Below, piece after piece: positions 5,579 through 59,020 of a DNA stretch of 64,000 nucleotides (the stretch's first letter is position 1; each line of letters starts with the position of its first letter). Origin of the DNA: Opitutus sp. (GTDB lineage Bacteria; Verrucomicrobiota; Verrucomicrobiia; Opitutales; Opitutaceae); NCBI GenBank assembly GCA_024707325.1, contig JANPZY010000001.1, positions 1,488,001 to 1,552,000 on the forward strand, in the 5' to 3' direction. The notes under the pieces are model-generated. The model was given only the letters and a program-made list of their open reading frames with translations. It had not been told where the DNA came from and did no database searches. Made by a program: the position numbers and the translations under genes.

Positions 5579-5708
5579 GGGAATTCGCGCGATTGCAGCC
5601 GCGCGTTTCTCCCCCTGCAAGGAGCAAACTCTTCTTACACGTGAATAAAGCTCATCGTGCGCAAGGCGCTGGCAACCGCGCCACCCTTCGCACCAAACCC
5701 TGCCAAAT

Positions 5709-5884
5709 TGCGGCATGAGTTGGGACTCACTGCGGACCGGGTCGGACCAAGGTCCGCACCCGGTCGAGCCCATGTGCGGACACGGTCGCGACAAGGTGCG
5801 GCCACGGTCGAGCCGATGTGCGGACACGGTCGCGACGAGGTGGGGATCGTGTCGGGACAAAGTGCGGACCGGGTCGCGGCCTTG
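5709..5884 (-). repeat. 22-bp degenerate tandem array, locus 1 (8 units)
   Basis: Eight consecutive 22-nt units, e.g. TGCGGACACGGTCGCGACAAGG and TGCGGACCGGGTCGCGGCCTTG; reverse complement of the orientation seen at the other loci. Confidence 0.95.
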
Positions 5885-8354: not shown

Positions 8355-8375
8355 AAAGTCCGTAATACGGACTTT
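8355..8375. repeat. 21-bp perfect palindrome, copy 1 (AAAGTCCGTAATACGGACTTT)
   Basis: 10-bp arms around a central A; ends 1 nt before the ATG at 8377. Confidence 0.95.
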
Positions 8376-8376
8376 C

Positions 8377-8760
8377 ATGAGCGACTATTTGCATCCGGAC
8401 CTGCGGTTGCTGGCGGCGCTGGCGGAAGTGTTGGAGGTGTCGGCGCGCGAACTTTCGAAGAGGGCGCAGCAACACTATCATGCACGCACGCGGAAAAAAC
8501 GGGGCGGCACGCTGCGCCCGGGCTACGATACGCCGTTGTGGCAGGCGCTCGCGGCAGCCGTGCGTCCGCATCTGGCCAAGCGCGGAACGCGAGCTCTGCT
8601 CGCACGCGAACTGGGTGTGCATGTTTCGCGCGTCACAGAATACTTCGTCAAAGGGACCGCGATGCCGGACGCCGAACGCGCGTTGATCCTGATGCTTTGG
8701 CTCGCAAGACGTCGCGATACCAAGCCCTCACCGGCACCCCGTCCCACCCAAAGTCCGTAA
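8377..8760 (+). CDS. Small HTH-like putative DNA-binding protein
   Basis: 128 codons; C-terminal HTH-like segment KRGTRALLARELGVHVSRVTEYFVKGTAMPDAERALILMLWL; enclosed by palindromes. Confidence 0.7.
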   Translation: MSDYLHPDLRLLAALAEVLEVSARELSKRAQQHYHARTRKKRGGTLRPGYDTPLWQALAAAVRPHLAKRGTRALLARELGVHVSRVTEYFVKGTAMPDAERALILMLWLARRRDTKPSPAPRPTQSP

Positions 8761-8770
8761 TACGGACTTT
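8750..8770. repeat. 21-bp perfect palindrome, copy 2 (CCC-flanked, 27 bp in total)
   Basis: CCCAAAGTCCGTAATACGGACTTTGGG (8747-8773); contains the TAA stop of the HTH ORF (8758-8760). Confidence 0.95.
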
Positions 8771-8813: not shown

Positions 8814-8834
8814 AAAGTCCGTATTACGGACTTT
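8814..8834. repeat. 21-bp perfect palindrome, copy 3 (opposite centre, T)
   Basis: AAAGTCCGTATTACGGACTTT: same arms, central base T, so inverted relative to copies 1 and 2. Confidence 0.95.
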
Positions 8835-13597: not shown

Positions 13598-13770
13598 GTG
13601 CCGCTCACGGCCGCGAGCCGGTGCGGACCTGGTCGCGACGTGGGACGCACTTGGTCCCGACCGTGTCCGCACCTTGTCCCGACTTGGTGCGCACTCGGGC
13701 GCGACGTGGTGCGCAATCAGTCCCGACTCGGGACGGACCTTGGCGCGACATGGGCCGCACACGGCTGCGG
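13598..13770 (+). repeat. 22-bp degenerate tandem array, locus 2 (6 clear units plus degenerate ends)
   Basis: Units from 13621 every 22 nt: GTGCGGACCTGGTCGCGACGTG, GGACGCACTTGGTCCCGACCGT, GTCCGCACCTTGTCCCGACTTG, ... Confidence 0.95.
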
Positions 13771-13835: not shown

Positions 13836-15071
13836 TTACTCGACGCCGAAGAACTTGATGATGCGGTGGAGTGACTTCACGAGTGCGTCGACATCGGCGG
13901 GCGTGTTGTAGAGATAGAAACTCGCGCGCGTGGTGCTCGTGAGGCCGAGCTTCTTCATCAGCGGCTGGTTGCAGTGGTGACCGCCGCGGAGCGCGATGGC
14001 GTCTTCGTCGGCAAAGGTCACGATGTCGTGCGCGTGCACGCCTTCGAAGGAGAAGCTGATCACGCCGGAGCGTTTCTCGCCGCGACGCGGACCGAGAATG
14101 CGGATGCCGGGCAGCGTGGAGAGTTGCTCCATCGCGTAGGCGGAAAGTTCGGCGTCGTGTTGCGCGATGGCTTCGCGGCCGACTTGGTCGATGTAGTCGC
14201 ACGCAGCGGCGAGCGCGACGGCGTCACCGAAATTGGGCGTGCCGGCTTCGAAGCGTTCGGGCGAGGGTTTCCAACGACTGGCTTGGTAATCGACGACGGA
14301 GATCATGCCGCCGCCGCCTTGGTAAGGCGGCATCGCATCGAGGAGTTTTTGTCGTCCGTAGAGCACGCCGATGCCGGTCGGGCCGAGCATCTTGTGTCCG
14401 GAGAATGCGTAGAAATCGCACCCGAGCGAGCGGACGTCGACGGGCAGGTGGCCGATGGATTGGGCGCCGTCGATCACGGTCACGATGCCGCGCGCGCGGG
14501 CGAGCGAGCAAAGTTCGAACGCGGGTGTGATGGTGCCGAGCGTGTTGGACGCGTGCGTGAAGGCGAAGAGCTTCACGTCGGGCGAGAGGAGTTTCTCCGC
14601 GGCGGCAAGGTCGAGACCTTCGGCGTTTTCGCCGGTGAAAGGGACGAAGCGCAGCTGGGCGCCGGTGCGCTGGGCGATGAGTTGCCAGGGCACGAGGTTG
14701 GAGTGGTGCTCGATCTCGGTGAGGAGAATCGTGTCGCCGGGCTTCAGATTGGCGCCGCCCCAACTTGAGGCGACGAGATTGATGGACTCCGTGGTGCCGC
14801 GCGTGAAGACGATCTCGGCGGGATCGGCGGCGTTGATGAAGCGGGCGAGGCGCGCGCGGGCGCCTTCGAAGGCTTCCGTGGCGCGATTGGAGAGTGCGTG
14901 GAGGCCGCGGTGGACGTTGGAGTTATCGCGTTCGTAGAAACGCGTGAGCGTGTCGATAACGCTGCGCGGTTTGTGCGCGGTGGCGGCGTTGTCGAGATAG
15001 ACGAGCGGCTTGCCATTGACCTGCTGGTGCAGGGTGGGGAAGTCGTCGCGGAGCTGGGTCCAGTTGGGCAT
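13836..15071 (-). CDS. sufS: SufS-type cysteine desulfurase
   Basis: YLDNAATAHKP, VIDGAQSIGHLPVDV, FSGHKMLGPTGIGVLYG, LRGGHHCNQPLM. Confidence 0.93.
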   Translation of the reverse strand: MPNWTQLRDDFPTLHQQVNGKPLVYLDNAATAHKPRSVIDTLTRFYERDNSNVHRGLHALSNRATEAFEGARARLARFINAADPAEIVFTRGTTESINLVASSWGGANLKPGDTILLTEIEHHSNLVPWQLIAQRTGAQLRFVPFTGENAEGLDLAAAEKLLSPDVKLFAFTHASNTLGTITPAFELCSLARARGIVTVIDGAQSIGHLPVDVRSLGCDFYAFSGHKMLGPTGIGVLYGRQKLLDAMPPYQGGGGMISVVDYQASRWKPSPERFEAGTPNFGDAVALAAACDYIDQVGREAIAQHDAELSAYAMEQLSTLPGIRILGPRRGEKRSGVISFSFEGVHAHDIVTFADEDAIALRGGHHCNQPLMKKLGLTSTTRASFYLYNTPADVDALVKSLHRIIKFFGVE

Positions 15072-17848: not shown

Positions 17849-17938
<90 letters not shown>

Positions 17939-22320: not shown

Positions 22321-24564
22321 ATGTCCGCTCCCCCGCGAAAAGGCTTCCCGTTCCCCAGTCTGGTTTACGCCCTGGTGCTCGCGACGCTCGCGTTCGTCGT
22401 CTACTGGCCGTCGTTGCACGGTGAGTTTCTCTGGGACGATCCAGCGCACGTCACCCGCGTGGGATTGCAGTCGTGGAACGGCCTTTGGCGCATCTGGTTC
22501 GAGTTCGGCGCCACGCAGGAATTTTATCCGGTGCTGCACTCCGCATTCTGGGTGCAACACCGCTTCTGGGGCGACGCAACCACGCCCTATCACGTCGTGA
22601 ACGTGCTGCTCCACGTCACCAACGGCGTGTTGCTCGCGCTCCTGGTGCGCCGCATCGACGGCTTGCGCGAACGGCCCCTTTTCCGCTCCGCGCTTCCGGC
22701 GTGGCTGGCCGGCGCAGTCTTTGTTTTGCACCCGGTGGCCGTGGAATCGGTCGCCTGGGTCACCGAGCAAAAGAACACGCTCTCCACGGCATTCCTGCTC
22801 GCGTCGGCCTTTGTCTTTTTCCGGTTCTGGTCCGAGCGCCGTCGGCGCGACTACGCGCTCGCCTTCTTCCTCTTCTTTATGGCCCTCGGCGCCAAGACCG
22901 CGACCGTGGTGCTGCCGCCGGCCCTGCTTGTAGTGATTTGGTGGATACGTGGACGGATCGAGTGGTCGCGCGAAATTCGCCCGCTCGTGGCCTTCTTCCT
23001 CCTCGCCTTCGTGGCCGGCGCGTTGACGGTCTGGTTCGAGAGCTCCTGGGTGGGCGCGCAGGGTTCGCTCTACGCGCTCTCGCTCGATCAACGCACCCTG
23101 CTCGCTGCGCGAGTCGTGTGGTTTTACCTCGGTAAGCTCGTGTGGCCCGCGGACGTCACGTTCTTCTATCCGCGCTGGGATCTGCCGGCGGAGACCGGCC
23201 GCGGTTTGTTCTGCCTTGGCGCCGCACTGGCTTTCACCGCGGCCTTGTGGCTGTTTCGTCGACGCCTCCGCGGACCGCTCGCCGCGTGGCTGCTCTTCGC
23301 GGGCGTGCTGTTTCCCGTGATGGGCTTCTTCAACGTCTACGCCTTCGCGTTTTCCTACGTTGCCGACCATTTCCAGTATCTCGCCATTCCCGTCTTCGCG
23401 GGAGCGGTGATCGTCGGGGCGCAGGCCGGCCTCTCCGCCCTCGCGCCTCGCGTGCAATGGCTCGGCGGCCGCGTGCCACTCGTTGCGAGCCTCATCGTGC
23501 TCGCGATCTACGGCGTGAATTCGCAGCGCCTGAGCGGCCACTACGTGAACAACGAGACGCTCTTCCGCGCCAACATCGCGACGAATCCGCAGTCCTGGAT
23601 GGGGCACCACATCCTTGCCTCCGCGGTCGGCAAGGATCCCGCGCGACTCGAGGAATCGCTCGCGCTCTATCGCCGCGCGCTCGAACTCCGGCGCGACAAT
23701 TACGAATCGAACTACAAATACGGCTACATGCTGGCCCAGGCCGGCCGTGCGCACGAAGCGATCCCGCACTACCGCGAAGCGTTGCGCATCCGTCCTCATT
23801 ATCCCGAGGCGCACAATAGTCTTGGCGTCGCACTCCTCGATGTCGCCCAGCCTGAAGAGGCCGTGAAGCATTTCGAGGAAGCGCTCCGCCAGCGGCCGCG
23901 TTTCGGGCTCGCGCTTTCGAACCTGGCGATCGCGCTGTCCCGCATCCCCGGCCGCGAACAGGACGCCGTCGCTCGCTTCGAGGAAGTGCTGCGTCTGATG
24001 CCGGAGCATACGCCCTCGCATTTTCATTTCGGCGTGCTGCTCTCGCGTCTCCCCGGCCGTGCCGCCGATGCGGTGCAACATTTCGAGATCGCCCTCGCGG
24101 CAGATCCGACGTCCGCGGAGACGCAGTATTATCTCGGCACGACGCTTGTGGCCGCCGGTCGCGTGCCCGACGCGCTGCGCGTGTTGGGCAACGCTGTGCG
24201 GATGCATCCCAACGATTCAGTGCTGCGCGCCCACCTCGGCGCCACGCTCGCGCTTCTGCCTGAGCGTCGCAGTGAAGCCCTCGCGCAGTTCCGCGAAGCG
24301 CTGCGAATTGACCCGCGACAACCGTGGGTGCAGTTCAACTACGCGCTTCAGCTCTTCCAGTCCGACGCCATCGTCGAAGCGAAGCAGGCCGTGCAAACCG
24401 CGCTCAAACTCCACGCGGACTATACCGATGCGCTCAATCTTCTCGGTGTGATTCTCGCGAGCGAAGGCAACGTGACGGAAGCGCGCCACCACTGGCGTCG
24501 TGCGCTCGAGATCGATCCCGCTTACGAACCGGCGCGCCGAAATCTGGCTCGAGTCGGAGAGTAA
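22321..24564 (+). CDS. Multi-pass membrane protein with C-terminal TPRs (TMTC / O-mannosyltransferase-like)
   Basis: DDPAHVTRVGLQSWNGLWRIW, HPVAVESVAWVTEQKNTLSTAF, then multiple TPR motifs. Confidence 0.8.
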   Translation: MSAPPRKGFPFPSLVYALVLATLAFVVYWPSLHGEFLWDDPAHVTRVGLQSWNGLWRIWFEFGATQEFYPVLHSAFWVQHRFWGDATTPYHVVNVLLHVTNGVLLALLVRRIDGLRERPLFRSALPAWLAGAVFVLHPVAVESVAWVTEQKNTLSTAFLLASAFVFFRFWSERRRRDYALAFFLFFMALGAKTATVVLPPALLVVIWWIRGRIEWSREIRPLVAFFLLAFVAGALTVWFESSWVGAQGSLYALSLDQRTLLAARVVWFYLGKLVWPADVTFFYPRWDLPAETGRGLFCLGAALAFTAALWLFRRRLRGPLAAWLLFAGVLFPVMGFFNVYAFAFSYVADHFQYLAIPVFAGAVIVGAQAGLSALAPRVQWLGGRVPLVASLIVLAIYGVNSQRLSGHYVNNETLFRANIATNPQSWMGHHILASAVGKDPARLEESLALYRRALELRRDNYESNYKYGYMLAQAGRAHEAIPHYREALRIRPHYPEAHNSLGVALLDVAQPEEAVKHFEEALRQRPRFGLALSNLAIALSRIPGREQDAVARFEEVLRLMPEHTPSHFHFGVLLSRLPGRAADAVQHFEIALAADPTSAETQYYLGTTLVAAGRVPDALRVLGNAVRMHPNDSVLRAHLGATLALLPERRSEALAQFREALRIDPRQPWVQFNYALQLFQSDAIVEAKQAVQTALKLHADYTDALNLLGVILASEGNVTEARHHWRRALEIDPAYEPARRNLARVGE

Positions 24565-24732
24565 CGTGTCCCGAGTCGTGCCGCGCTGTGGCTCGACTCG
24601 GTGCGGACCTTGGCTCGACCCAAGCCGCACCGTGTCCCGACCGTGGACGGACCTTGGCTCGACCCGGGACGCACTTTGGCGCGACTCATGCCGCACTTTG
24701 TCCCGAGTCGGTCCGCGCTCGATCCCGACTCA
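24565..24732 (+). repeat. 22-bp degenerate tandem array, locus 3 (7 units plus partial)
   Basis: Units from 24579: TGCCGCGCTGTGGCTCGACTCG, GTGCGGACCTTGGCTCGACCCA, AGCCGCACCGTGTCCCGACCGT, ...; last unit overlaps the opposing stop codon. Confidence 0.95.
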
Positions 24733-27138
24733 GAACCCGCTGCGCAGTTCGGGCGGCAGGAGTTCGCGGGCGAGGCTGCGCATCGATTCGTCCGGGAGGG
24801 AAACGCCGAGCGCTTTGCACAAGTTGAGAAAACGGTAGAGCGGGAGCGTGGGCAGCGAGCGCAGGTCTTCTTCGCTCATGAATTCGAGACACGCTTCCAC
24901 TTCTTTTCGTGCGGCGGTGAAATCGCGGCTTTGCGCGAGCACGACCGCGAGACTCACGCGGCGATCCCACGGGAGGTCCTCGTCGTCGCCGGAGCTGATC
25001 TGCTCGTTGATCTTCGTGAGCAGCGCCGCCGTCCCGGACCTGTCTCCGCGGGCGATCGCCGTGTGAGCTCGAGCGATGAGCGAGCTGAGATCGGTGGGGA
25101 AGGACTCCGCCAGCGAGTCACCGAGCGCGATCGCGAGCCGGCCGCGACCCATGTCGACGAAGTATTCGGCGAGTCGGCTGAGTGCGATGTTGTTGTCCTG
25201 CACTTCGGTGATTTCGAAGAGCACGAGCCATTGGTCTTCGTAGCCTTCGATGCCGGGGAGTTGATAGGAGATCGGGCGGAGCCAGCGCGGCGGCAGCCAT
25301 TTGTGGAGCAGGCCCATCAACGAGTGCTCCGGCTGGTTGGCGCCGAGCCGCGCGTATTCGTCGAGAAAACCGTCCCACGACGGAATCACGATGTGCGTGA
25401 CCCCGCGGCGCTGCACGAGCGCGAGCGCTTCATCGGGCGAAGTCGCGCCAGCGATGCGGATCGACGCGCGGAAACCTTCCTCGTTTTCGCGATAGGGAGA
25501 ACCGAGTCCGCGCAGACCGCCGTGAAATATGAGCGACGTCGTGAGGCTCGGCGGGGCGAGCGCAACGGCGCCCGCCGGGCCAACGCGGCGCGCGAGCCAG
25601 TGCGCGAAATCGCGTTCGATCAGGCTTTGCAGATCGGTGGAGCTGACCTGCGGATTTTGCGGATCCACTTTTGCCGGCCAGATCGCGACGACTCCGAGAA
25701 GGGCGCAAAGAAGTGCGCCGCTTCCCAGCGCGAGCCGCACGCTCGGGCGCAGCGCCGAGCACACGGCCGGTGCAGCCGCGAGCGCGACGAGCGCCACAAT
25801 CACGAGATCGAGCTGCGCCCAGCGGCTGAGTTGCCAGCAGGCGAGCGGCAAGGCGACGGCAAGCGCGCCCGCGGTGATCCAGAGCGCGTCGCGCTGCGGA
25901 CGGGTGCGCGCTGATTTCCAGACAAACCAGAACGCGGCGAGCGCGACGAGCGCGGGCAACACCACGGCTGCGGTGCGGAGCGAAACGCCTTCGACCAGCC
26001 ACGTCGCGAGGTGACGCGACTCGATCCCGCCGTCGAGCATGCTGAGCCGGCCGCTGAACGAGCCCTCGGCGAGAAATGCCCAGGACTTCTTCCACAGCAT
26101 CACGGCGGGCAGAGCGACAAGCGCGAGCGCCGCAGCGATCGTTGCGAACAGATGCGATTTCGCCCACGGCATCGGGCGCGTCACGCGATGGATCAACTCG
26201 GCGCCGCCGAGCCACGCGAGTGCATAGAGCGGATGCACCTCGCCGAGTCGCCAAGCCGCGAAGTCGAAATGGTCGGGCGCATATTCGATCACAAACGTCG
26301 CGAGCACGGTCGCCGCGCCGGCTATGCCCCACGTCCGCCAGGGCCAGGCTGGCTGGGTCGCATCGTGCCGTGCGAGCCACGCGCAAACCAATCCGCCGAG
26401 TCCCAAGCCTACGAGCGTCGGTGCGGTAAACGTGCCAACCCAGAGTGCGAGTCCGCCCGCGATGCCGCTCCACAAAAACGCCCGCCGCGTGCGGCGCGGA
26501 TTTTCGCCCGCGCTCCAAACTCCGGTCACGAGCAGCAGCACGCTCAGCGCGAGAAACACCAGTGCGGGCGTGCGCGGATCGGGTGCGCCCGGCACGATCT
26601 GGCCGGTGAGCGGGAACAACGCCGCGATTGCGACGCCCGCCACCGCGCCCGCGCGCGCACCGAGCGCACGGCCCACCATCAACGTCGTGAGCGCGATCAA
26701 CAGGAGATGCAGAATCGAATCACTCCACAGCGCGGCGCGCTCGACTGCGAGGCCGAGCGGTTTTCCGAACACCGAGTGCCCGACGAACGCCAGACTCGCG
26801 AGCCACCACCGCGGCGCTGAGCTGGTGCGCACGGGACGGCCCTGGGGAGCGTTGTCGTAATCGGCCTGACGCAAGCGCCACTTGCCTTCCGCGAGCATCG
26901 TCTGCGTCTGCACGATGAGCTGGTAGCTCTCGTTGTTATGCCCGGGCACGATCAGCATTCGCACCCCGCCGGCGTAACCGGTGGGGGAGTCGGCGCTGGC
27001 GATCGCCGCAGGGTTGCCGAGCTCGGTGATCGCGTCGACCTGACGAACGCGGGAGCAGGAAAACCCGAAGACGACGACAGCTGCGAGGGCGGGTAACAAC
27101 AACCAGGCCTTGGCCAGGGAGCGGGGGAACGAACTCAT
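24730..27138 (-). CDS. Large multi-pass membrane protein, weak resemblance to STT3/GT66-type oligosaccharyltransferases
   Basis: Many TM segments; N-terminal region ESYQLIVQTQTMLAEGKWRLRQADYDNAPQGRPVRTSSAPRWWLASL; family call is tentative. Confidence 0.5.
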   Translation of the reverse strand: MSSFPRSLAKAWLLLPALAAVVVFGFSCSRVRQVDAITELGNPAAIASADSPTGYAGGVRMLIVPGHNNESYQLIVQTQTMLAEGKWRLRQADYDNAPQGRPVRTSSAPRWWLASLAFVGHSVFGKPLGLAVERAALWSDSILHLLLIALTTLMVGRALGARAGAVAGVAIAALFPLTGQIVPGAPDPRTPALVFLALSVLLLVTGVWSAGENPRRTRRAFLWSGIAGGLALWVGTFTAPTLVGLGLGGLVCAWLARHDATQPAWPWRTWGIAGAATVLATFVIEYAPDHFDFAAWRLGEVHPLYALAWLGGAELIHRVTRPMPWAKSHLFATIAAALALVALPAVMLWKKSWAFLAEGSFSGRLSMLDGGIESRHLATWLVEGVSLRTAAVVLPALVALAAFWFVWKSARTRPQRDALWITAGALAVALPLACWQLSRWAQLDLVIVALVALAAAPAVCSALRPSVRLALGSGALLCALLGVVAIWPAKVDPQNPQVSSTDLQSLIERDFAHWLARRVGPAGAVALAPPSLTTSLIFHGGLRGLGSPYRENEEGFRASIRIAGATSPDEALALVQRRGVTHIVIPSWDGFLDEYARLGANQPEHSLMGLLHKWLPPRWLRPISYQLPGIEGYEDQWLVLFEITEVQDNNIALSRLAEYFVDMGRGRLAIALGDSLAESFPTDLSSLIARAHTAIARGDRSGTAALLTKINEQISSGDDEDLPWDRRVSLAVVLAQSRDFTAARKEVEACLEFMSEEDLRSLPTLPLYRFLNLCKALGVSLPDESMRSLARELLPPELRSGF

Positions 27139-27222
27139 GTGGGGCGTGCGGAGACGCCATGCTGAAGGGCGGAAAACCCGGAGCCAGCCGAATCTCTACT
27201 ATAAATAGAATCTGGGCTCCGC

Positions 27223-30200
27223 TTGCCAGCGAGTGCCGTGGGTCGTTTGCTCGAAAACATGTTTCCCGGTCGGCTTCCGTGGCGCGCACCCCACAGCGCG
27301 CGGAAAGGGCGGCGCGCAGGGTGGCGCTGCCTCACGCTCGCACTCGTTGCGGCTGCACCTGCTTTTGCGGCTGACATCGATTCACGACCACTGGAGCCGC
27401 GCACGGCCGTGGCGGGACCGACGTTGTTCAAGGAACTCCGACCGGAGGAAACGGGCATCCTCGCCGATAATCCCTTCGCCGATCCCAAAATGTGGGGCGA
27501 GCGTTACCAGGAATTTGCTCTCGGCACCTTCGGCACGGGCGTCGCCATCGGCGACTACGACAACGACGGGCGGCCCGACGTCTTTGTCGTCAGCAAGACG
27601 GGACAGAGCCGGCTGTTTCGCAACCTCGGCGGTTGGAAGTTTCAGGATGTCACCGATGCCGCGGGATTGTCCTCGAAAGGCGCGCGGCGGGGCAACGTCC
27701 CGCGTGCGCTCGATTCGGTCGAGGCATGGAAACAGGGCGCCGCGTTTGCCGACGTGAACAACGACGGCTGGCTCGACCTGTATATCTGCCGCTTCAACGC
27801 GCCGAATCTACTCTATATCAATCAGGGCGACGGGCGGTTCGTGGAAAGCGCGGCGAGCTACGGGCTCGATCTCGTGGACGCGTCGGGCATGGCGGCATTT
27901 TGCGATTACGATCGCGATGGACTCCTCGATGTTTACATCACGACCAACATGCTCGACGGCACGCGCGAGCCCGGCGGACGACGCGGCCGCCTGTATCGGA
28001 ATAATGGAGACAACACCTTTCGCGAGGTGACCGCTGCGGCGGGAGTCGCGGGCGAAGGTCTGACGCACGCCGGCATCTGGTGGGATTACGATCAGGACGG
28101 CTGGCCCGATCTCTACATCGCCAACGACTTCGCGGGCCCGGATGTGCTGTTTCGCAATAATCGTGACGGCACCTTCACCAACGTGCTCGATGCGGTGATC
28201 CCGCAGACGCCGTATTCGTCGATGGGCGCGGATTTCGGCGACGTGAACAATGACGGTCTGCACGACTTCCTCGTCGCCGACATGGCCGCCACGACGCACG
28301 AAAAGGATCAGCGGACGATGGTGCATTCGCGGGAATTGAGCCGCCCCGAAAGCGAACTCCCGGACGTCGCCCCCCAGTATCTGCGCAACGTGCTTCTGGT
28401 TAACACCGGCACCGCGCACATGCAGGAAGCTGGTTGGCTGTCTGGTCTGGCTGCGACTGACTGGACGTGGTCGGTGCGTTTCGAAGACCTCGACAACGAC
28501 GGCCTCGTGGACGTGCACGTCACCAACGGCATGAACCGCGAATATCACAACGGCGATCTGCGCGAGCGCATCTTCGCGATGGAAACGCCCGCGGAGCGCG
28601 TGCGGGCGATGAAAGCCAGCCCGGTGCTCAATGAGCAGAACCTCGCGTATCGCAATCTCGGCGACCTGGGTTTCGAAGATGTCAGCGCTCGCTGGGGACT
28701 CGCGCACGTGGGCGTGAGTTTCGGCGCCGCCTTTGGCGATCTCGATGGCGACGGCGATCTCGACCTCGTGTATACCAACTACGAGGCGCCGCCGACCGTG
28801 TTGCGCAACGATGCGCCGGCCGGTCACCGCGTGCTGATCGCGCTCCGCGGCACGGCTTCGAATAAGTTCGGCGTGGGTTCGCGCGTGACGATCGAGACGG
28901 ATGCCGGTGTGCAAGTCCGCGACCTCGTGCTCGCGCGTGGCTATCTGTCCACCAGTGAACCCGTGCTGCATTTCGGTTTGGGGGAAATCGATCGCATTCG
29001 AAAGATGACGGTCGAGTGGCCGAGCGGCCGACGCCAGGTGTTCACCGATCTTGCCGCCGACCGCCGCTACACGATCACCGAACCGACTAGCGACTCGGTT
29101 GGAACGGCGTCGGAGTTTTCGAGGCCGAGTTATTCGCCGCTGCTCACTCCGCTCCCGGAAGAAGCGGGCTTCACGGTTTCCACGCGGGAGAAGAACAACG
29201 AGGAAAAGATGCGCCAGGCGTTTGTGCCGGTGACCTTTCATCGTCGCGGGCCTGCGGCGGCGGTGATGAATTCGCGTGCGCAGGGTTGGGAGATTCTTGT
29301 CGGCGGCACGTCCGCGGAGCCGCCGCGGCTGCTGAGCGTATCGTCAGGCCGCGCGACTGCGCAGCCGCTGCCGGCGCTCGCGATGCCGCCTGGCGCGCCG
29401 GCTGGTCCGCTGTTGGTTTTCGATGCCGATGGCGACAATCGCAACGATGTCGTGGTGACCGCGACGAGCGCCGCGCTCGCGAGTGCGGCGAGCGAACTGC
29501 GGGTGCGTTTGTTTCATGGTTCCTCCGGCGGCGCGTTTACCCCCGCGGCCGACGATGTTCTCGGCAACCTGCGCCTGAGTGTCGGTGCGCTGGCTGCGGT
29601 GGATGTGGACCGGGACGGGCGCTTGGATCTTTTCGTGGGCGCGCGCAACGTGCCGGGCCGCTATCCACTGTCCCCGCGGAGTGCGCTGTTGCTCAATCGC
29701 GGTGGCCGTTTCGAAGACGCGACGGAAACGCGCGCGCCCCTGTTGCGGGAAACCGGCTTGGTGACGGCGGCGGTGTGGACCGACGTCGATGATGACGGCT
29801 GGCCGGATCTCGTGGTCGCGACGGAGTGGGGGACGATCCGCTGCTTCCGCAATCGCGAGGGCGGCGGTTTCGAGGACTGGACCGAACGCGCCGGGTTTGC
29901 GGCGGCGGGCGCGGGTTGGTGGACTTCGCTGGCCGTCGCGGACTTCAACGGCGACGGCCGTCCCGATTTCGTGGCCGGTAATGTTGGTTTGAATACACCG
30001 TATCGTGCGACCGCAGAGCGGCCATCGTTGATCTACTACGGCCGCTTCGGCGGTTCGAGCGGCCCGCAGCTTGTCGAGGCCTACTACGAAGGCGATCGCG
30101 TGTATCCGCGGCGCTCGGCGAAAGTGCTCGGCAGCAAAATTCCGTTCGTGCTGCGCCGCTTCCCGCGCTCGGACGCGTATGCGCGGGCGGTGCTGGAGGA

Positions 30201-30909
30201 CGTTCTCGGCGCGGACGCGATCGCGGCGGCCCAGCGCTTTCAGGCGACTAATTTCTCCTCGGGCGTTTTTTTGAGCCAACCCAACGGCACTTGGCGTTTC
30301 GAGCCATTGCCGCGTGTCGCACAGATCGCGCCCGCGCAGGGCATCGTGTGTGCGGACTTCGATGGCGACGGGAACGAAGATATCCTGCTGGCTCAAAACT
30401 CTTACGCGCCGATTTCACAAATCGGCCGCTTCTCCGGCGGCATCGGACAATTGCTCGTTGGCGACGGTCGCGGCGGATTCACCGCCGTGTCCGTGCGCGA
30501 GAGTGGTGTAGTGATCCCCGGCGACGCGAAAGCCGCGTGCGTGCTGGACTTCGATGCGGACGGATGGCCCGATTTGTTTGTGACGCGAAACAACAGCACG
30601 ACACTCGCCTGGCGAAACACGGGCAGCGAATCGCGCCGCTCGTTTGCGGTGGGGTTTGATGCGGGCGCGGTGATCGCTCCGATCGTGGGGGCGAAAGTCA
30701 CCGTGGAATTTGCCGATGGCCGCGCCCACTCACGCTGGGTCACGGCTGGATCCAGCTACTACAGCCAGGACTCCGCGTCATGCTTCTTTGGATACGACGA
30801 AGCCGCTCCGCCGCGCCGCGTGCGTGTGCGCTGGGGCTCCGGCCAAACGACCGAGCATCCGGTGGCGGCGATCTCGCCGCAGCTCTGGCTCACGCCGCCT
30901 GCACAATGA
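27223..30909 (+). CDS. FG-GAP/VCBS repeat protein with ASPIC/UnbV domain (CRTAC-like), 1228 aa
   Basis: Repeated GDYDNDGRPDVFV, DVNNDGWLDLYICRF, DLDGDGDLDLVYTN; ASPIC-like RKMTVEWPSGRRQVF. Confidence 0.9.
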   Translation: MPASAVGRLLENMFPGRLPWRAPHSARKGRRAGWRCLTLALVAAAPAFAADIDSRPLEPRTAVAGPTLFKELRPEETGILADNPFADPKMWGERYQEFALGTFGTGVAIGDYDNDGRPDVFVVSKTGQSRLFRNLGGWKFQDVTDAAGLSSKGARRGNVPRALDSVEAWKQGAAFADVNNDGWLDLYICRFNAPNLLYINQGDGRFVESAASYGLDLVDASGMAAFCDYDRDGLLDVYITTNMLDGTREPGGRRGRLYRNNGDNTFREVTAAAGVAGEGLTHAGIWWDYDQDGWPDLYIANDFAGPDVLFRNNRDGTFTNVLDAVIPQTPYSSMGADFGDVNNDGLHDFLVADMAATTHEKDQRTMVHSRELSRPESELPDVAPQYLRNVLLVNTGTAHMQEAGWLSGLAATDWTWSVRFEDLDNDGLVDVHVTNGMNREYHNGDLRERIFAMETPAERVRAMKASPVLNEQNLAYRNLGDLGFEDVSARWGLAHVGVSFGAAFGDLDGDGDLDLVYTNYEAPPTVLRNDAPAGHRVLIALRGTASNKFGVGSRVTIETDAGVQVRDLVLARGYLSTSEPVLHFGLGEIDRIRKMTVEWPSGRRQVFTDLAADRRYTITEPTSDSVGTASEFSRPSYSPLLTPLPEEAGFTVSTREKNNEEKMRQAFVPVTFHRRGPAAAVMNSRAQGWEILVGGTSAEPPRLLSVSSGRATAQPLPALAMPPGAPAGPLLVFDADGDNRNDVVVTATSAALASAASELRVRLFHGSSGGAFTPAADDVLGNLRLSVGALAAVDVDRDGRLDLFVGARNVPGRYPLSPRSALLLNRGGRFEDATETRAPLLRETGLVTAAVWTDVDDDGWPDLVVATEWGTIRCFRNREGGGFEDWTERAGFAAAGAGWWTSLAVADFNGDGRPDFVAGNVGLNTPYRATAERPSLIYYGRFGGSSGPQLVEAYYEGDRVYPRRSAKVLGSKIPFVLRRFPRSDAYARAVLEDVLGADAIAAAQRFQATNFSSGVFLSQPNGTWRFEPLPRVAQIAPAQGIVCADFDGDGNEDILLAQNSYAPISQIGRFSGGIGQLLVGDGRGGFTAVSVRESGVVIPGDAKAACVLDFDADGWPDLFVTRNNSTTLAWRNTGSESRRSFAVGFDAGAVIAPIVGAKVTVEFADGRAHSRWVTAGSSYYSQDSASCFFGYDEAAPPRRVRVRWGSGQTTEHPVAAISPQLWLTPPAQ

Positions 30910-33851
30910 AGAGAGAGGTTCGTTTCGGAATTCGCGGCGCCGGTTGGGCGTTGATGGCGAAACTGACGTTCGGCGTGGTCGCGTTGGCCGCTGCGCCGAA
31001 CGTCTCGATGGAGCCCTTGGCGAAACCCACCGCGAAGAGCGGCGCGACGATGTTTCGCGAGATGTCGCCGGAGGAAACCGGTATCGTCGCCGCCAATAAC
31101 TACGACGATCCGCGCATGTGGGATCAGCGTTACCAGGAACTCGTTTATGGCGCGATCGGCACGGGCGTCGCGATCGCCGACTACGACGGCGATGGCCGCC
31201 CCGACGTGTTTGTCGTGAGCAAGGTCGGCAAGAGCCGGCTTTTTCGAAATCTCGGCGGTTGGAAATTTGAAGACGTCACCGACAAGGCCGGTGTCGCTCC
31301 GAGCAGCGCGGGCTGGAGCGGGCGGGCACGCAGTTGGCTCGGGCTCGGCGAAAGCTCCGAGCCCGGAGAGTGGACGCAGGGCGCAACGTTCGCCGATGTG
31401 AACAACGATGGTCGTCCCGATCTCTACATCTGCCGCTTCGCCGCGCCGAATCTGCTCTACATCAACCAGGGTGACGGCACGTTTCGCGAAGAGGGCGCGG
31501 CGCGCGGACTCGACGTTGTGGACTCGAGCGGGATGGCGGCCTTCGCCGACTACGATCGCGATGGCTGGCTCGATGTTTTCGTGCAGACCAATCTGCTCGA
31601 CGCCTCGAAACAACCCAACGGCCGCGTCGACCGCCTGTTTCGCAATCGCGGCGACGGCACCTTCGTCGAGGTGACCGCCACCGCCGGCATTGCGGGCGAG
31701 AGCGCCGGACACTCGGCCACGTGGTGGGATTACGATGGCGACGGCTGGCCCGATCTCTATGTCGCCAACGATTTCGCGACGCCGGATCGGTTGTATCGAA
31801 ATAATGGAGACGGCACGTTCACCGACGTCATTCACCGTGTCGTGCCGCACATGCCGTATTACGCGATGGGCGCGGATCTCGGCGACGTGAACAACGATGG
31901 CCTCATCGATTTCTTCGTCGCCGACATGCCCGCGACGACCCGCGAGAAGGATCAACGCGGCATGGCGGTGTCGCGCGCCCGCGCGCAGTTGCCGCCGAGC
32001 GATCCGGCCGAGGCCCCGCAATACATGCGCAACATGCTTTACGTGAACACCGGCCTCGGGCGTTTGCAGGAGGCGTCGTATCTGGCCGGCGTATCCGCGT
32101 CGGACTGGACGTGGTCGGCGCGTTTCGAGGACCTCGATAACGACGGCCGCCTCGATCTCCATCTGACGAACGGCATGATCCGCGAGTATCACAACGTGGA
32201 TCTGCTGGACCGCCTCATGGGCACGGAAAGTCCGACGGAATCCCGTCGCCTCGTGCGCAACAGTCCCGTGCTCGCCGAGGCCAATCTCGCGTTTCGCAAT
32301 CGCGGCGAGCTCGACTTCGAAAACGTTTCCGCGGCGTGGGGGCTCGACCAGGTCGGCGTGAGTTTCGGCACGACGCTCGCCGACCTCGATGGCGACGGCG
32401 ATCTCGATCTCGTCGTCAGCAATCTCGATCGCGATCCTGCCGTGTTCCGCAACGACAGCACCTCTGGCTATCGCGCGATCGTGAAACTCCGTGGCACGCG
32501 CTCCAATCGCGATGGCATCGGCGCGAAAATCAAAATCGAGACCGCGAGCGGTCTGCAGGTGCGCGAACTTTCGCTCGCCCGCGGTTATCTTTCCTCGAGC
32601 GAGCCGGTCGCGCATTTCGGTTTGGGCAGCGACGATCGCATCCGCCGACTCACGATCGAATGGCCGAGCGGTGTTCGTCAGACGCTCGAGGATTTGCCCG
32701 CGAATCATCGTTTCGTGATCACGGAGCCGTCCGATGCTCCCACGCCCGCGACACCGCGCGCGGCGACACGCTTTGAGCAAACGGCTTCACGTTCCGGTTC
32801 GCCGCTCGCGGTGGAGCCCGTGCGCGCGAGCGCGGACTTTGATCGCAGCGGAGCGCAGAGTGTCTTTATCGCGGGTGCGGTCGAAACGGATGCGTTTGCG
32901 CTCGATCCGCGGGCGGGTGCTTCGCGGCTCGTGCGCATGCAGGGCGAGAACGAGCACGACATCACCGATGCGATTGCTCCGGCACTGCGCACGCTCGGGC
33001 GCGTCAACGCTGCACTCTGGGTCGATCTCGATCGTGATGGCTGGCTCGACCTGATTGTCGCGGAGTCGTGGGGCGCCGTGCGCTATTTTCATAACCGCGA
33101 GGGTCGCGCGCTCGAAGACTGGACGGAGCGCGCCGGTTTCGCGGCGGCGGGCAATGGCATCTGGCTCTCACTCGCGGCCGGTGATTTCAACGGCGACGGA
33201 CGTCCCGATCTCGCGGTGGGCAATCTCGGACTCAACACGCGTTACCGCGCGAGCCGCGAGGAACCGGCACTCGTTTATCTCGGCCAGTTTGGTTCGAGCA
33301 CTCCGATCACGGTCGAGGCGCGTTGGGATGGTGGAAAAATCTATCCGTGGGAAACGCGGCCGGAACTCGCCGCGCGCGTGAAATCCGTGCTGCGGCGTTT
33401 CCCGAAGAACGACGCTTACTCACGCGCCACGCTCGCGGAAATTCTCGGCGCGAATCGCCTCGCCGCTGCGCGGCGCTTCGAAGCGGCGGAGCTGTCGAGC
33501 GGCGTGTTTCTGAGTCAGCCTGACGGCACGTGGAGCTTCCAGGCGTTTCCGCGTCTCGCGCAGCTTGCGCCGATCGTGCAGCTCGCGGTCGCTGATTTCG
33601 ATGGCGATGGCGCGTTGGATCTCGTCGCAGGACAAAACCTCTTCTCCACGCCAGCGCCGGTCGGACGTTTTGGCGGCGGGCTGGGACAACTGCTGCTCAA
33701 CGATGGCCGCGGTGGTTTTGTCGCGGAGCCGACGTCGCGCTCGGGACTGATCGTGCCGGGCGAAGTTGCGCAGATCGCCGTGAACAAAGGCGAAATCACC
33801 TTCGTGCAGCGCGACGGCCAGGTGATCACGTTCCGCAATCGCGGGAAGTAA
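30906..33851 (+). CDS. FG-GAP/VCBS repeat protein with ASPIC/UnbV domain, paralogue of the preceding gene
   Basis: Colinear similarity with 27223-30909 (EETGI.A.N...DP.MW..RYQE...GTGVAI.DYD.DGRPDVFVVSK.G.SRLFRNLGGWKF); ATGA overlap with the upstream stop. Confidence 0.9.
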   Translation: MKREVRFGIRGAGWALMAKLTFGVVALAAAPNVSMEPLAKPTAKSGATMFREMSPEETGIVAANNYDDPRMWDQRYQELVYGAIGTGVAIADYDGDGRPDVFVVSKVGKSRLFRNLGGWKFEDVTDKAGVAPSSAGWSGRARSWLGLGESSEPGEWTQGATFADVNNDGRPDLYICRFAAPNLLYINQGDGTFREEGAARGLDVVDSSGMAAFADYDRDGWLDVFVQTNLLDASKQPNGRVDRLFRNRGDGTFVEVTATAGIAGESAGHSATWWDYDGDGWPDLYVANDFATPDRLYRNNGDGTFTDVIHRVVPHMPYYAMGADLGDVNNDGLIDFFVADMPATTREKDQRGMAVSRARAQLPPSDPAEAPQYMRNMLYVNTGLGRLQEASYLAGVSASDWTWSARFEDLDNDGRLDLHLTNGMIREYHNVDLLDRLMGTESPTESRRLVRNSPVLAEANLAFRNRGELDFENVSAAWGLDQVGVSFGTTLADLDGDGDLDLVVSNLDRDPAVFRNDSTSGYRAIVKLRGTRSNRDGIGAKIKIETASGLQVRELSLARGYLSSSEPVAHFGLGSDDRIRRLTIEWPSGVRQTLEDLPANHRFVITEPSDAPTPATPRAATRFEQTASRSGSPLAVEPVRASADFDRSGAQSVFIAGAVETDAFALDPRAGASRLVRMQGENEHDITDAIAPALRTLGRVNAALWVDLDRDGWLDLIVAESWGAVRYFHNREGRALEDWTERAGFAAAGNGIWLSLAAGDFNGDGRPDLAVGNLGLNTRYRASREEPALVYLGQFGSSTPITVEARWDGGKIYPWETRPELAARVKSVLRRFPKNDAYSRATLAEILGANRLAAARRFEAAELSSGVFLSQPDGTWSFQAFPRLAQLAPIVQLAVADFDGDGALDLVAGQNLFSTPAPVGRFGGGLGQLLLNDGRGGFVAEPTSRSGLIVPGEVAQIAVNKGEITFVQRDGQVITFRNRGK

Positions 33852-33861
33852 GCTCGAGTCG

Positions 33862-33972
33862 AGCCGCACTCGGGCTCGACTCAGGCCGCACCTTGGCTCG
33901 ACTCGGGACGCAACGGGGCCCGACTCGGTGCGCATCGTGTCCCGGTTCGGGACGGACTTTGGCGCGGGTCGG
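33862..33972 (+). repeat. 22-bp degenerate tandem array, locus 4 (5 units)
   Basis: AGCCGCACTCGGGCTCGACTCA, GGCCGCACCTTGGCTCGACTCG, GGACGCAACGGGGCCCGACTCG, GTGCGCATCGTGTCCCGGTTCG, GGACGGACTTTGGCGCGGGTCG. Confidence 0.95.
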
Positions 33973-35409
33973 TCAGCGTTTGATCGAAGCGGGGGCGCCG
34001 AATTTTTTGCGATAGAGGTCCTGCAGTTGCTGGAACGCGGAAGCGGAGGCGCGCGGTTGTTGCGCGATGCGGTTGAGCCACTGATCGGCTTCGGCGCGAT
34101 CGCCGAGAGAGATGGTTTGAAACGCCATCACGGTGAGCGCGTGCGGATCGGCGGGATCGAGCGCGAGCGCGTCACGCATTTGTTGGATGCCTTCGTCAAC
34201 GCGGCCCAGCGAGATGAGCAGGTTGCCGAGTTCGAGGTAGGTGGGCGGCTCGTGCGGACGAAGTTGGATGGAGTAAGTGTAGGCGGCGATGGCTTCTTCG
34301 TTGCGACCGGCTTCGCGGAGGCGTCGGGCGCGGAGGAGATGCAGTCCGGGCGAGGTGGGGCAGTTGCTCAGGCCGGCGGCGAGCGCGCGCGCGGCGCCTT
34401 GGTGGTCGCCCATCTTGGCGAGCGTTTCGCTGAGGTTGCTCCAGCCGTCGGAGAAATCGGGAGCGAGCGTGGTGCAGCGGGCGAAGCGATCGCGGGCGGC
34501 GTCGAGGCGTCCGGTTTGGAGGAAAAGCGAGCCGAGCTGGAAGTGCGCGGAGACGTCGTTGGGCGCGAGGGCGACGGCGCGCTCGAGCAAACGCAGCGCA
34601 GTCGCGGTGTCGCCGGTGCGGGCGATGGCGCCGGCGGAAATCGCGATGCGATAGGAGTCGTAACATTTCTCCATGAGCGCGTCGGCCCACGGATCCGGCG
34701 GATCACGGTAGGCGCCGGAGGCTTTCGCGGCGCCGCGGATCGCGGCCGCGCGCTGGAGTTCACCGGTGCGTTCGTAGAGCGAGACGATGAGATCGTAGCC
34801 GAGTTGGTAATTGGTCTGGCGCACGATCGCTTCGAGGCGCGGGCGAGCGGCGGAGTCGCGTCCGGCTTCGAGATCGAGGCGCGCGAGACCAAGTTGCGCG
34901 TAGGGATCGTCGGGCGATTGCTTGAGCGCGCCTTCGTAGGCGGACTTGGCGGTGGCAAGATCGTTGGCCTTCAGCGCGGCATCGCCGAGTCGCAGGCGCG
35001 CGGGCAGGTAATCGGGCGCGAGGGCGACGGTGCGCTGCCAGAGTGAGATCGCGGCTTCGACTTCGCCGTAGCCGGCGAGGATCGTGGCGTGCAAGTGCGG
35101 CCAGCGAGCTTCGCGCGGCTGCAGCTCGGCGAGCGCGGTGTAGCAGCTCATCGCCTCCTCGAGGTATCCATTGGCATGATACAGAAGCGCGAGGTCGGCG
35201 AGGCCGGCCGGGGCGTCGGTAAGCGAGTGCGCCTTCTTTTCGGCGGCGTCGAGTTCTTCGCGCAGCGCGGGATGAACGCCCTCAACCGGCGGGGCAGGCG
35301 GGAGCGCAGCGATGGCGATGGACTGGCGGTGGGCGGCGGATTGCCACCACCAAAACGCGCCGCCGGCAGCGAGGACGAGGACGGCGACGATCAGAAGCTT
35401 GGGACGCAT
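33973..35409 (-). CDS. TPR-repeat protein with N-terminal membrane anchor
   Basis: Hydrophobic N-terminus, then tandem TPR-like motifs (DHQGAARALAAGLSNCPTSPGLHLLRARRL...). Confidence 0.82.
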   Translation of the reverse strand: MRPKLLIVAVLVLAAGGAFWWWQSAAHRQSIAIAALPPAPPVEGVHPALREELDAAEKKAHSLTDAPAGLADLALLYHANGYLEEAMSCYTALAELQPREARWPHLHATILAGYGEVEAAISLWQRTVALAPDYLPARLRLGDAALKANDLATAKSAYEGALKQSPDDPYAQLGLARLDLEAGRDSAARPRLEAIVRQTNYQLGYDLIVSLYERTGELQRAAAIRGAAKASGAYRDPPDPWADALMEKCYDSYRIAISAGAIARTGDTATALRLLERAVALAPNDVSAHFQLGSLFLQTGRLDAARDRFARCTTLAPDFSDGWSNLSETLAKMGDHQGAARALAAGLSNCPTSPGLHLLRARRLREAGRNEEAIAAYTYSIQLRPHEPPTYLELGNLLISLGRVDEGIQQMRDALALDPADPHALTVMAFQTISLGDRAEADQWLNRIAQQPRASASAFQQLQDLYRKKFGAPASIKR

Positions 35410-51268: not shown

Positions 51269-51465
51269 GCTCGCACCTTGTCGCGACCCGATCCGCACAC
51301 GGGCACGACTCGGTCCGCACATCCGTGCGACTCCGGCGCACATTGTCCCAATTTGGTCCGAACATTGCCGCGACACGGTCCGGACATTGTCTCGACCGTG
51401 TCCGCACCTTGTCCCGCCCTGGTGCGCACTCGGTCGCGACTCGGTCCAATCCTCGGCACGAGTCA
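51269..51465 (+). repeat. 22-bp degenerate tandem array, locus 5 (about 9 units, one of 21 nt)
   Basis: GCTCGCACCTTGTCGCGACCCG, ATCCGCACACGGGCACGACTCG, GTCCGGACATTGTCTCGACCGT, GTGCGCACTCGGTCGCGACTCG, ... Confidence 0.95.
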
Positions 51466-56359: not shown

Positions 56360-57715
56360 ATGGCCGCGCCCGACCAAACCGATCTCTTTGCCGAGGAACC
56401 GCTGCCCGCCGCGCAGTCCACCTCAGCGTCGAAGTCCGCGCATCAGCCGCTCGCCGCGCGCATGCGTCCGCGGCGCTTGAGCGAAGTCGTCGGTCAGGAA
56501 CACATCCTCAAACCCGGCAGCCTCCTGCCGCGGCTCGTTGCGCAAAATCGGTTCGGCTCGCTCATCTTCTACGGACCGCCCGGCTGCGGAAAAACCAGCA
56601 TCGCGGAGGCGATCGCGCGCGAGACGCAGAGCCGTTTCGTGCGGATCAACGCCGTGATGTCCAACGTCGCCGAGCTCCGCGAAATCCTCGCCACGGCGCG
56701 GCGGCGTCCGGAAGCGGCGACGATTCTCTTCATCGACGAGCTGCACCGCTTCAACAAATCGCAACAGGACCTGCTGCTCCCTGATGTGGAGGAGGGCAGC
56801 GTGCGACTCATCGGCGCGACGACGCACAATCCGGGTTTCTACGTAAACCCGCCGCTGCTTTCGCGCAGTCATCTCTTCCGCCTCGAACCGCTTTCGACGG
56901 CAGCGGTCGCGGGCGTGCTGCGTCAGGCTTTGGTGGATACGGAGCGCGGACTCGGTGCGCGCGACGTCACCGCTACGGACGAAATTCTCTCCGATCTCGC
57001 CGTGCTCTGCGATGGCGACCTGCGTCGCGCGCTCAATGCGCTCGAAGTGCTCGTGCTCGGCTTGCCCGAAAACGGCGAACTCACCGCGCAGGATCTCGAA
57101 GTCTTCGCGCGCGAGCGGCGCATCCGCTACGACGCCGACGAAGACGAGCACTACGACACGATCTCAGCCTTCATCAAAAGCTGCCGCGGCAGCGATCCCG
57201 ATGCGGCGATGTATTGGCTCGCGAAGATGCTCGCCGGTGGCGAGGACCCGCGGTTCATCGCGCGGCGTCTCGTGATTCTCGCGAGCGAGGACGTGGGCCT
57301 GGCCGATCCGCAGGCGCTGCCGCTTACTGTCGCGGCGCATCACGCGGTCGATTTCATCGGTTTGCCCGAGGCGGAACTCACGCTCGCGCACGCCACGCTC
57401 TACATCGCGACCGCACCGAAGAGTAACACCGCCACGCTCGCGCTTGGCGCCGCCCATGCCGCGCTGAAATCCGCGCCCGTGCAACCGGTGCCGATCGCGC
57501 TGCGTGACAAAGGCGGACAGGCGAGCAAGCGCGCAGGCCATGGCAAGGGCTACCGCTACTCGCACGATTATCCCGAGAACATTTCCGGGCAGGACTATCT
57601 CGAGAAACCGCTCACGCTCTACACGCCGAAGCCGGTCGGGTGGGAGGCAAAGATCGCCGATCGCCTGGCGCGTTGGGCCGAGTTGAAGGCTGAGATGAAA
57701 CAACGCGCGCGCTGA
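56360..57715 (+). CDS. rarA: Replication-associated recombination protein A (RarA/MgsA AAA ATPase)
   Basis: ARMRPRRLSEVVGQEHIL, FYGPPGCGKTSIAEAIA, IDELHRFNKSQQD, ASEDVGLADPQAL. Confidence 0.94.
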   Translation: MAAPDQTDLFAEEPLPAAQSTSASKSAHQPLAARMRPRRLSEVVGQEHILKPGSLLPRLVAQNRFGSLIFYGPPGCGKTSIAEAIARETQSRFVRINAVMSNVAELREILATARRRPEAATILFIDELHRFNKSQQDLLLPDVEEGSVRLIGATTHNPGFYVNPPLLSRSHLFRLEPLSTAAVAGVLRQALVDTERGLGARDVTATDEILSDLAVLCDGDLRRALNALEVLVLGLPENGELTAQDLEVFARERRIRYDADEDEHYDTISAFIKSCRGSDPDAAMYWLAKMLAGGEDPRFIARRLVILASEDVGLADPQALPLTVAAHHAVDFIGLPEAELTLAHATLYIATAPKSNTATLALGAAHAALKSAPVQPVPIALRDKGGQASKRAGHGKGYRYSHDYPENISGQDYLEKPLTLYTPKPVGWEAKIADRLARWAELKAEMKQRAR

Positions 57716-57719
57716 GTCA

Positions 57720-57881
57720 CGCCGCACTCAGGCGCGACTCGAGCCGGACCTTGGCTCGACGAGGGACGCACCTTGTCGCGACCGTGTGCGCAACGTGGCA
57801 CGACCCGGTCCGCACTGTGTCCCGACCCGGTCCGCACGCGGGCTCGACCCGGTGCGCACCTTGGCGCGACTCACGCCGCGC
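57720..57881 (+). repeat. 22-bp degenerate tandem array, locus 6 (7 units plus partial)
   Basis: CGCCGCACTCAGGCGCGACTCG, AGCCGGACCTTGGCTCGACGAG, GGACGCACCTTGTCGCGACCGT, GTGCGCAACGTGGCACGACCCG, ... Confidence 0.95.
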
Positions 57882-59020
57882 TCAGAAGTGGATGCGCAGT
57901 TCGGTGCGAACTTGATCCGAGCGGTAGCTGGCGCCGCGGTCGGCTTCATAGCCGATCTGCACGAGCGAGCCATCGGTCCACGGCCATTGATACGCGAGGC
58001 CGACCGTGGTGTAGTCGGGCACGGCGGCGGCCTTGAAGAGGCGCGTCTGCGTGACCTGACCCACGAAACGATGCGCGGCGAAGGGCAGATCGAGTTCGGC
58101 AACGAGGCCGACCTTGCCGATGTGTTGATCCACCACTTTGTCGAATTCGTAGCCTTCGAAATCGAGCGGGATGCCGTGGAAAGTAGAGCCCATGAGAGCG
58201 CCGCCGAGGCGAAGGTCGTCCGTGATTTCGCGCATCACGTTGACCGCGCCGCCCCAAGTGTAGACCGCGCCGCCGGCAGCGAGGTTTTCCGAGCCGCGAA
58301 GGGCCGCGCCGGTGAAGAATGTCGCGCGAGAGTGCCAGCGGTTTTCCTCTTCATAGGGGATCAGGTCGCGCGAAATCGCGCCGGCCACACCGGCTCGAAA
58401 ATCTCGGCGTCGCCGGTTTCAGCGTAGTTCATCGGCGCGAGCAGCGTGAGGTAGGTGCGTTCGGAGGCGCGGTAGCCGATCTCCGGATCGAGCGCGAGCA
58501 CGCGACCGCTCAGCCGTCCGGAGTGCCACCAGCTCTCGCGGGGTTGGAGACTCACGTGGGTGCGTTGCTCCCGGTCGAGGTGGGAGGGCGAACGCGGCAG
58601 GCCGAAGCTGTTGAAAAACGTGCCCGCGAGGAGCGCGGTGGTGGCGTTGGGATTTCCGTCGGTCACGCCGGCGGAGGAGCGTTTGTTCACGACGCGGCGA
58701 AAACGCGCGAACTCGCGGCCGCCTTCGTTCTTGATCCACTTGGACACTGCGTTTTGCAGCTGCGCGGGAGTGTTGCCGGTGAAGGTGTGGACATAGCCGG
58801 TCGAAGGAATGCGGAGCGTCGCGGTGTTCCCCTCGAATGTGACGCTGACGCCCAACGCGCGAGGCAGGCCGAGGTAATCAATGTCGGCGGTGATCGGGCG
58901 GTCTTTGAACGCGGCGAACTCGTTCTGTTTACCGACGAGCGCGGAGATGAGATCCATGACGTCGCTGCCGCCCACGTGGATCGAAAGCGGAGGATCGGAG
59001 TGGGTCGTCACATCGACCAC
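57882..59020 (-). CDS. Hypothetical outer-membrane beta-barrel-like protein, frameshifted near 58390
   Basis: Two overlapping minus ORFs (58361-59020, 57882-58388) give a continuous product if one G is restored at ...FEP(G)VAGAISRD; ends in aromatic F. Confidence 0.6.

Follow-up and report, generated by a model that had tools for sequence, protein, structure and literature searches.

Arrays of a 22-bp unit recur between the genes of this Opitutus genome, and they look more like genome-wide DNA-wrapping or supercoil-control sites than gene-end signals. Our preferred reading, to which we assign a probability of about 0.4, is that they would act as helically phased, supercoil-linked sites of DNA wrapping, present at about one per domain of ~10 kb.

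Census of the 22-bp arrays

For the count, 1.26 Mb of the genome served to train a weight matrix, which detected 115 arrays there and gave no array when that sequence was reversed. The matrix was then frozen and applied to a held-out 0.8 Mb, which yielded 73 arrays and again no control matches. The 2.06 Mb sampled from the 4.04-Mb genome thus contain 188 arrays with 1153 units, against none in the reversed controls, and about 370 arrays are extrapolated for the whole genome. Their density is fairly even, with 30–48 arrays per 400–464 kb across five sampled regions, and the median spacing is 8.9 kb. The most common array length is six units (132 bp), and the usual range is 110–176 bp. The assembly, which comprises four contigs and is 93.6% complete, was found to lack a 16S rRNA gene, suggesting that an rRNA operon is missing from it.

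Within the window, the whole stretch of 64,000 nucleotides, the core pattern with two mismatches allowed has 36 matches compared with 0.6 expected from shuffles. The weight-matrix scan recovered all six loci described in the initial annotation, as well as the reported position of loci 2, 3, 4 and 6 in convergent gaps and of loci 1 and 5 in tandem gaps. Array 1 (eight units, 5705–5880, minus strand) lies 3' of recD2, and array 5 (seven units, 51280–51454, plus strand) lies 3' of a nuoN-like gene. Array 2 (seven units, 13610–13763, plus strand) is flanked by a lipoprotein-like gene ending at 13230 and a cysteine-desulfurase-like gene ending at 13836. Array 3 (24565–24732, plus strand) has seven full units (24568–24721) and half-units at its edges, and fills the gap between a gene for a TPR/membrane protein (22321–24564, plus strand) and an opposing gene (24730–27138, minus strand) whose TGA is in phase with the array (TGA followed directly by GTCGGGATC). 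Array 4 (33851–33972, plus strand), with five full units (33851–33960) and edge half-units, likewise fills the gap between the gene for an FG-GAP/VCBS-type repeat protein (30954–33851, plus strand) and an opposing gene for a TPR protein (33973–35409, minus strand). Array 6 (57715–57884, plus strand) has seven full units (57731–57884) and is flanked by a rarA/mgsA-like gene, with its stop at 57713–57715, and a gene ending at 57882.

Beyond the full units found by the weight-matrix scan, degenerate half-units carry the arrays on to the stop codons: array 3 extends into the TCA (a stop on the minus strand) at 24730, and array 4 reaches the stop at 33973. The arrays at loci 3, 4 and 6 nearly fill their gaps from stop to stop, as proposed, and the one at locus 2 fits more loosely, lying 379 bp and 72 bp from its two stops. 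The interval 24565–33972 comprises two separate arrays, 3 and 4, and three intervening genes (24730–27138, 27409–30909 and 30954–33851). A search of Rfam across the window gave no match to the arrays; its sole match was a tRNA gene at 17849–17935.

Unit structure, composition and divergence

Each unit consists of two 11-bp halves, A (GKCN followed by CGAC and three bases) and B (GKNC followed by GSAC and three bases), both with an 8-bp dyad at the centre, of which one arm is near-fixed and the other variable. In the weight matrix, CGAC and CG-AC are near-invariant and recur on one face every 11 bp. Units are arranged head-to-tail in a single orientation within an array, and of the 965 spacings between successive units, 944 are exact multiples of 22 bp. 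The fixed CG steps fall at positions 5/6 and 15/16, or about every half turn, and the A/T minima at positions 7 and 18 are 11 bp apart. Exactly one A/T is present in the left arm in 849 cases for half A (562 expected) and in 928 cases for half B (645 expected), and a pyrimidine-purine step occurs at positions 10–12 in 96% of units (78% expected). Several positions are coupled: the combinations of G2 with C4 and of T2 with T4 were each seen 5 times against 61 expected, T-A at positions 13/14 was never seen against 54 expected, and positions 10/11 are coupled too. Much of this coupling reduces to the rule of one A/T per left arm together with the pyrimidine-purine step near 10–12. Such composition rules are to be expected if groove geometry and bending outweigh base identity, though CGAC and CG-AC are near-fixed.

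Nearly all units (1086 of the 1153 in 2.06 Mb) are distinct, and neighbouring units are no closer to each other (63.5% identity) than random pairs (61.9%). Adjacent units being no more similar than random ones, an origin by tandem duplication was rejected. Copying or transposition of whole arrays was not detected either, with the best 66-bp identity between arrays (0.806) being about that obtained with shuffled units (0.786). Ordinary tandem duplication or transposition would leave repeated units and copied arrays, and neither trace was seen. Because neighbouring units are unlike and yet the phase is kept, indels appear to have been excluded while bases drifted. Bacterial minisatellites and VNTRs resemble the arrays in having tandem units of fixed length, but their neighbouring units are the most alike, reflecting a history of slippage, whereas the arrays bear no sign of slippage duplication.

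Placement relative to genes

The suggestion that arrays belong at the 3' side of genes and in convergent gaps was borne out genome-wide. Among gaps of at least 50 bp in the 2.06 Mb, an array is present in 68 of 175 convergent, 89 of 666 tandem and 12 of 230 divergent gaps (Fisher p for convergent gaps ~1e-17 versus divergent and 6e-13 versus tandem). Gene calls came from a simple, purpose-written coding-potential model, with approximate starts and firmer stops, the latter being the basis of the conclusions. Of 56 tandem-gap arrays in the first 1.26 Mb, 45 are nearer to the upstream stop than to the downstream start, with median distances of 37 and 178 bp, respectively. Arrays point in the direction of the upstream gene about as often as against it. 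For arrays whose direction opposes that of the gene, a TGA in one constant phase forms 23 of the 63 close junctions, mostly as TGA followed by GTCG (p ~5e-14 after correction for 22 phases), which indicates that arrays occupy the non-coding space up to the stop, with the TGA serving as part of the repeat. For rarA, an orthologue in a congener (G001) that is 85% identical has no array behind it and ends at the same place to within about one residue, so in this case the array did not truncate the gene.

A hairpin family of the same genome, TCATTCTGAGCGCAGCGAAGAATCC, served as a control. It is found in 13%, 3.6% and 1% of convergent, tandem and divergent gaps; counted via its two halves, the numbers are 23/175 and 20/175 for convergent, 24/666 and 23/666 for tandem, and 2/230 and 0/230 for divergent gaps. 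Its relative gap preference is thus about equal to that of the arrays. REPs of other genomes are also mostly located in unidirectional and convergent gaps (PMC3733652). With an unrelated hairpin and REPs showing a like bias, location alone is a weak argument for a function at 3' ends; the placement on which the initial annotation based its functional proposals stands, but the argument drawn from it does not carry far. As a general method, such a repeat control indicates that a bias towards convergent gaps is not evidence of function, and that mutual exclusion may be. The palindrome repeat AAAGTCCGTAATACGGACTTT, with 20 sites, is too rare for its gap bias to be judged. As a separate observation in the 2.06 Mb sampled, outside the window, 41 of 84 core matches to TCATTCTGAGCGCAGCGAAGAATCC, a count in which single sites may be included twice, are no more than 600 bp away from a 22-bp array, which is above the level for uniform placement.

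Mutual exclusion and spacing of arrays

Arrays avoid one another at short range. Counting all pairs, only 3 lie less than 3 kb apart where 27 were expected; observed and expected numbers roughly agree from about 4 kb, and at 6–10 kb there is an excess, with 68 pairs seen against 55 expected. The proportion of neighbouring arrays separated by less than 3 kb is 1.9% for the first 1.26 Mb and 1.6% for the held-out 0.8 Mb, compared with about 16% expected (16.3% in the held-out region alone; p<1/3000 for each). The null distribution was obtained by permuting arrays among gaps of equal region, type and length class, and the first regions guided the choice of 2, 3 and 5 kb as thresholds, the result being repeated on regions fetched later. 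The TCATTCTGAGCGCAGCGAAGAATCC hairpin repeat lacks this behaviour, with 9% seen versus 5% expected. Mutual exclusion fits an element that serves a domain, whereas a terminator or RNA-stability element, serving its own gene, need not avoid a neighbour 2 kb away. The exclusion below ~3 kb and the preferred spacing of 6–10 kb therefore lend support to the part of the initial annotation that guessed at insulators or supercoil-related elements. The topological domain of E. coli and Salmonella has been quoted at ~10 kb (PMC3820752), and the median spacing of 8.9 kb resembles it; this is a resemblance and not a test.

Neighbouring arrays tend to share an orientation (110 of 183 pairs), a tendency that fades with neighbour order from 60% to 57% and 53% and for which a connection with gene strand or GC skew was sought and not found. 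A tie between array orientation and either the replication strand or the upstream gene was considered, and none was seen in the sampled genome.

Distribution among genomes

The exact pattern occurs 54 times in its own genome and was absent from 37 relatives and from 387 other genomes of the phylum, making this genome the one carrier among 388. A sequence-only covariance model run on 61 family genomes gave one weak match, located inside a coding gene, and nothing convincing in the 60 others. Gaps in a 400-kb sample of a congener have no autocorrelation at 22 bp, while the convergent gaps of the array-bearing genome have a 4.9-fold excess at lag 22. Among the matches listed in a wider scan of contigs were two single ones in unrelated taxa, viral contigs gave no matches, and literature searches returned no description of such arrays. 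Strict phase, no trace of duplication or copying and restriction to one lineage together pose an evolutionary puzzle.

A possible role in supercoil control

The phase of 11 bp, the length of ~132 bp, the independence of orientation, the convergent or 3' location and the domain-like spacing point to a supercoil-linked site of wrapping or binding. On this reading the array would be an element acting at the DNA level, its 22 bp corresponding to two turns of ~11 bp, and what would matter is the phase and where G/C and flexible steps fall, not the exact sequence. Each array may then provide a platform for wrapping or co-operative binding by which supercoils arising from transcription are fixed or removed where transcription units have their 3' ends, with roughly one array for every topological domain of ~10 kb. 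We infer that a protein binds the arrays and that the benefit is supercoil control; DNA gyrase is the likeliest putative partner, a nucleoid protein being next, and gyrase itself may account for perhaps half of the probability given above.

The genome encodes a GyrA with six C-terminal blades. In E. coli, the gyrase motif spans 130 bp with phased G/C arms, a distinct 36-bp centre being flanked by two periodic arms of 47 bp (PMC6379681), and in M. tuberculosis gyrase is enriched between convergent genes (PMC5433769). BIME-2 elements are strong gyrase sites independent of transcription, for which a topological role has been proposed (PMC6379681, PMC3733652), while recruitment of E. coli gyrase downstream of genes was reported not to be hard-wired in the sequence (PMC6379681). 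The arrays resemble the 130-bp motif and the strong gyrase site (SGS) of phage Mu in length scale, phased G/C and a location where positive supercoils collect, a likeness of form only. Unlike these sites the arrays are uniform, with near-invariant bases and no distinct central segment seen, and the link to gyrase is by resemblance. The missing centre and the near-fixed bases count against gyrase in particular, and the near-invariance of CGAC and CG-AC is as suggestive of a specific protein that reads the bases directly as of DNA mechanics. Against the supercoil reading as a whole stands the congener, which manages with no arrays.

Three other explanations were weighed against this reading. We consider it very improbable that the arrays are bidirectional terminators, barriers to read-through or elements protecting RNA 3' ends, as the initial annotation had inferred. 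Their position at stop codons and the preference of tandem-gap arrays for the stop over the next start agree with such a role, and both of their strands outperform dinucleotide shuffles in folding (z -2.1 and -2.3). This advantage vanishes when the comparison is with arrays put together from random units (z 0.07 and 0.15), a control that removed RNA structure as an array-specific signal, and complementarity specific to arrays (15-nt dyads within a unit) is at background level (1.8% versus 1.6%). Intrinsic terminators share with the arrays the site just past stop codons, but they consist of a stable hairpin followed by a T-tract, a combination that the arrays lack. The annotated lack of T-tract terminators was indeed observed: arrays 3 and 4 contain no terminator-like site within 24565–33972, and a run of five T or A is present in only 7 of 188 arrays. 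T-tract hairpins are about equally frequent at gene ends with and without arrays, orientation is random, and a 3' element acting per gene does not predict mutual exclusion.

Neutral or selfish repeats akin to REP/BIME, having spread in an ancestor, survived only where they did little harm (3' flanks and convergent gaps) and then diverged, are a stronger contender that we nonetheless regard as unlikely. The patchy phylogenetic distribution suits an invader, and the gap bias of the TCATTCTGAGCGCAGCGAAGAATCC hairpin and of REPs elsewhere is of the kind expected. Like E. coli BIME-2 and the GTAG- and CGTC-tagged REPs, the arrays are dispersed in the hundreds through intergenic regions, 3' of genes in convergent and tandem gaps. 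However, a REP/BIME is an imperfect palindrome of 20–40 bp forming a stem-loop and occurring in clusters of alternating orientation, whereas the units here have only 8-mer dyads with one variable arm and run head-to-tail in one orientation. REP/BIME copies are moreover numerous and near-identical, frequently accompanied by a RAYT transposase; the units here are almost all distinct. The rigid phase and composition rules despite drifted units, the arrays not being copies of each other, and the ~3 kb mutual exclusion that the control hairpin lacks all speak against such an origin. Rather improbable in our judgement is binding by a putative dedicated, sequence-specific nucleoid or chromosome-organising protein with no direct supercoiling role, such as a loop anchor, an SMC loader or a segregation mark. 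The near-invariant cores on one face every 11 bp, the orientation independence, the mutual exclusion and the quasi-regular spacing would suit such a protein, but the proposal leaves the convergent and 3' placement to be explained by tolerance alone. Sites that serve segregation are as a rule concentrated around ori or ter, in contrast to the fairly even density of the arrays.

Returning to supercoil-linked wrapping, a broader and more tentative possibility is that phased, sequence-degenerate arrays, about one to a topological domain and separated by a minimum distance, form a genome-encoded lattice of DNA-mechanical elements. Such a lattice would define supercoil domains, or where gyrase is loaded, at 3' ends, and would be kept by selection on helical phase and composition and not by copying. 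The borders of bacterial topological domains are generally thought to be stochastic and not fixed by sequence. If the lattice is real, ~370 visible, mutually exclusive and evenly spaced elements, located where positive supercoils accumulate, would make hard-wired domains directly testable.

A further repeat in the window is the perfect palindrome AAAGTCCGTAWTACGGACTTT, three copies of which (8355–8375, 8750–8770 and 8814–8834) surround a small ORF upstream of recD2. This palindrome has about 20 sites in the 2.06 Mb sampled.
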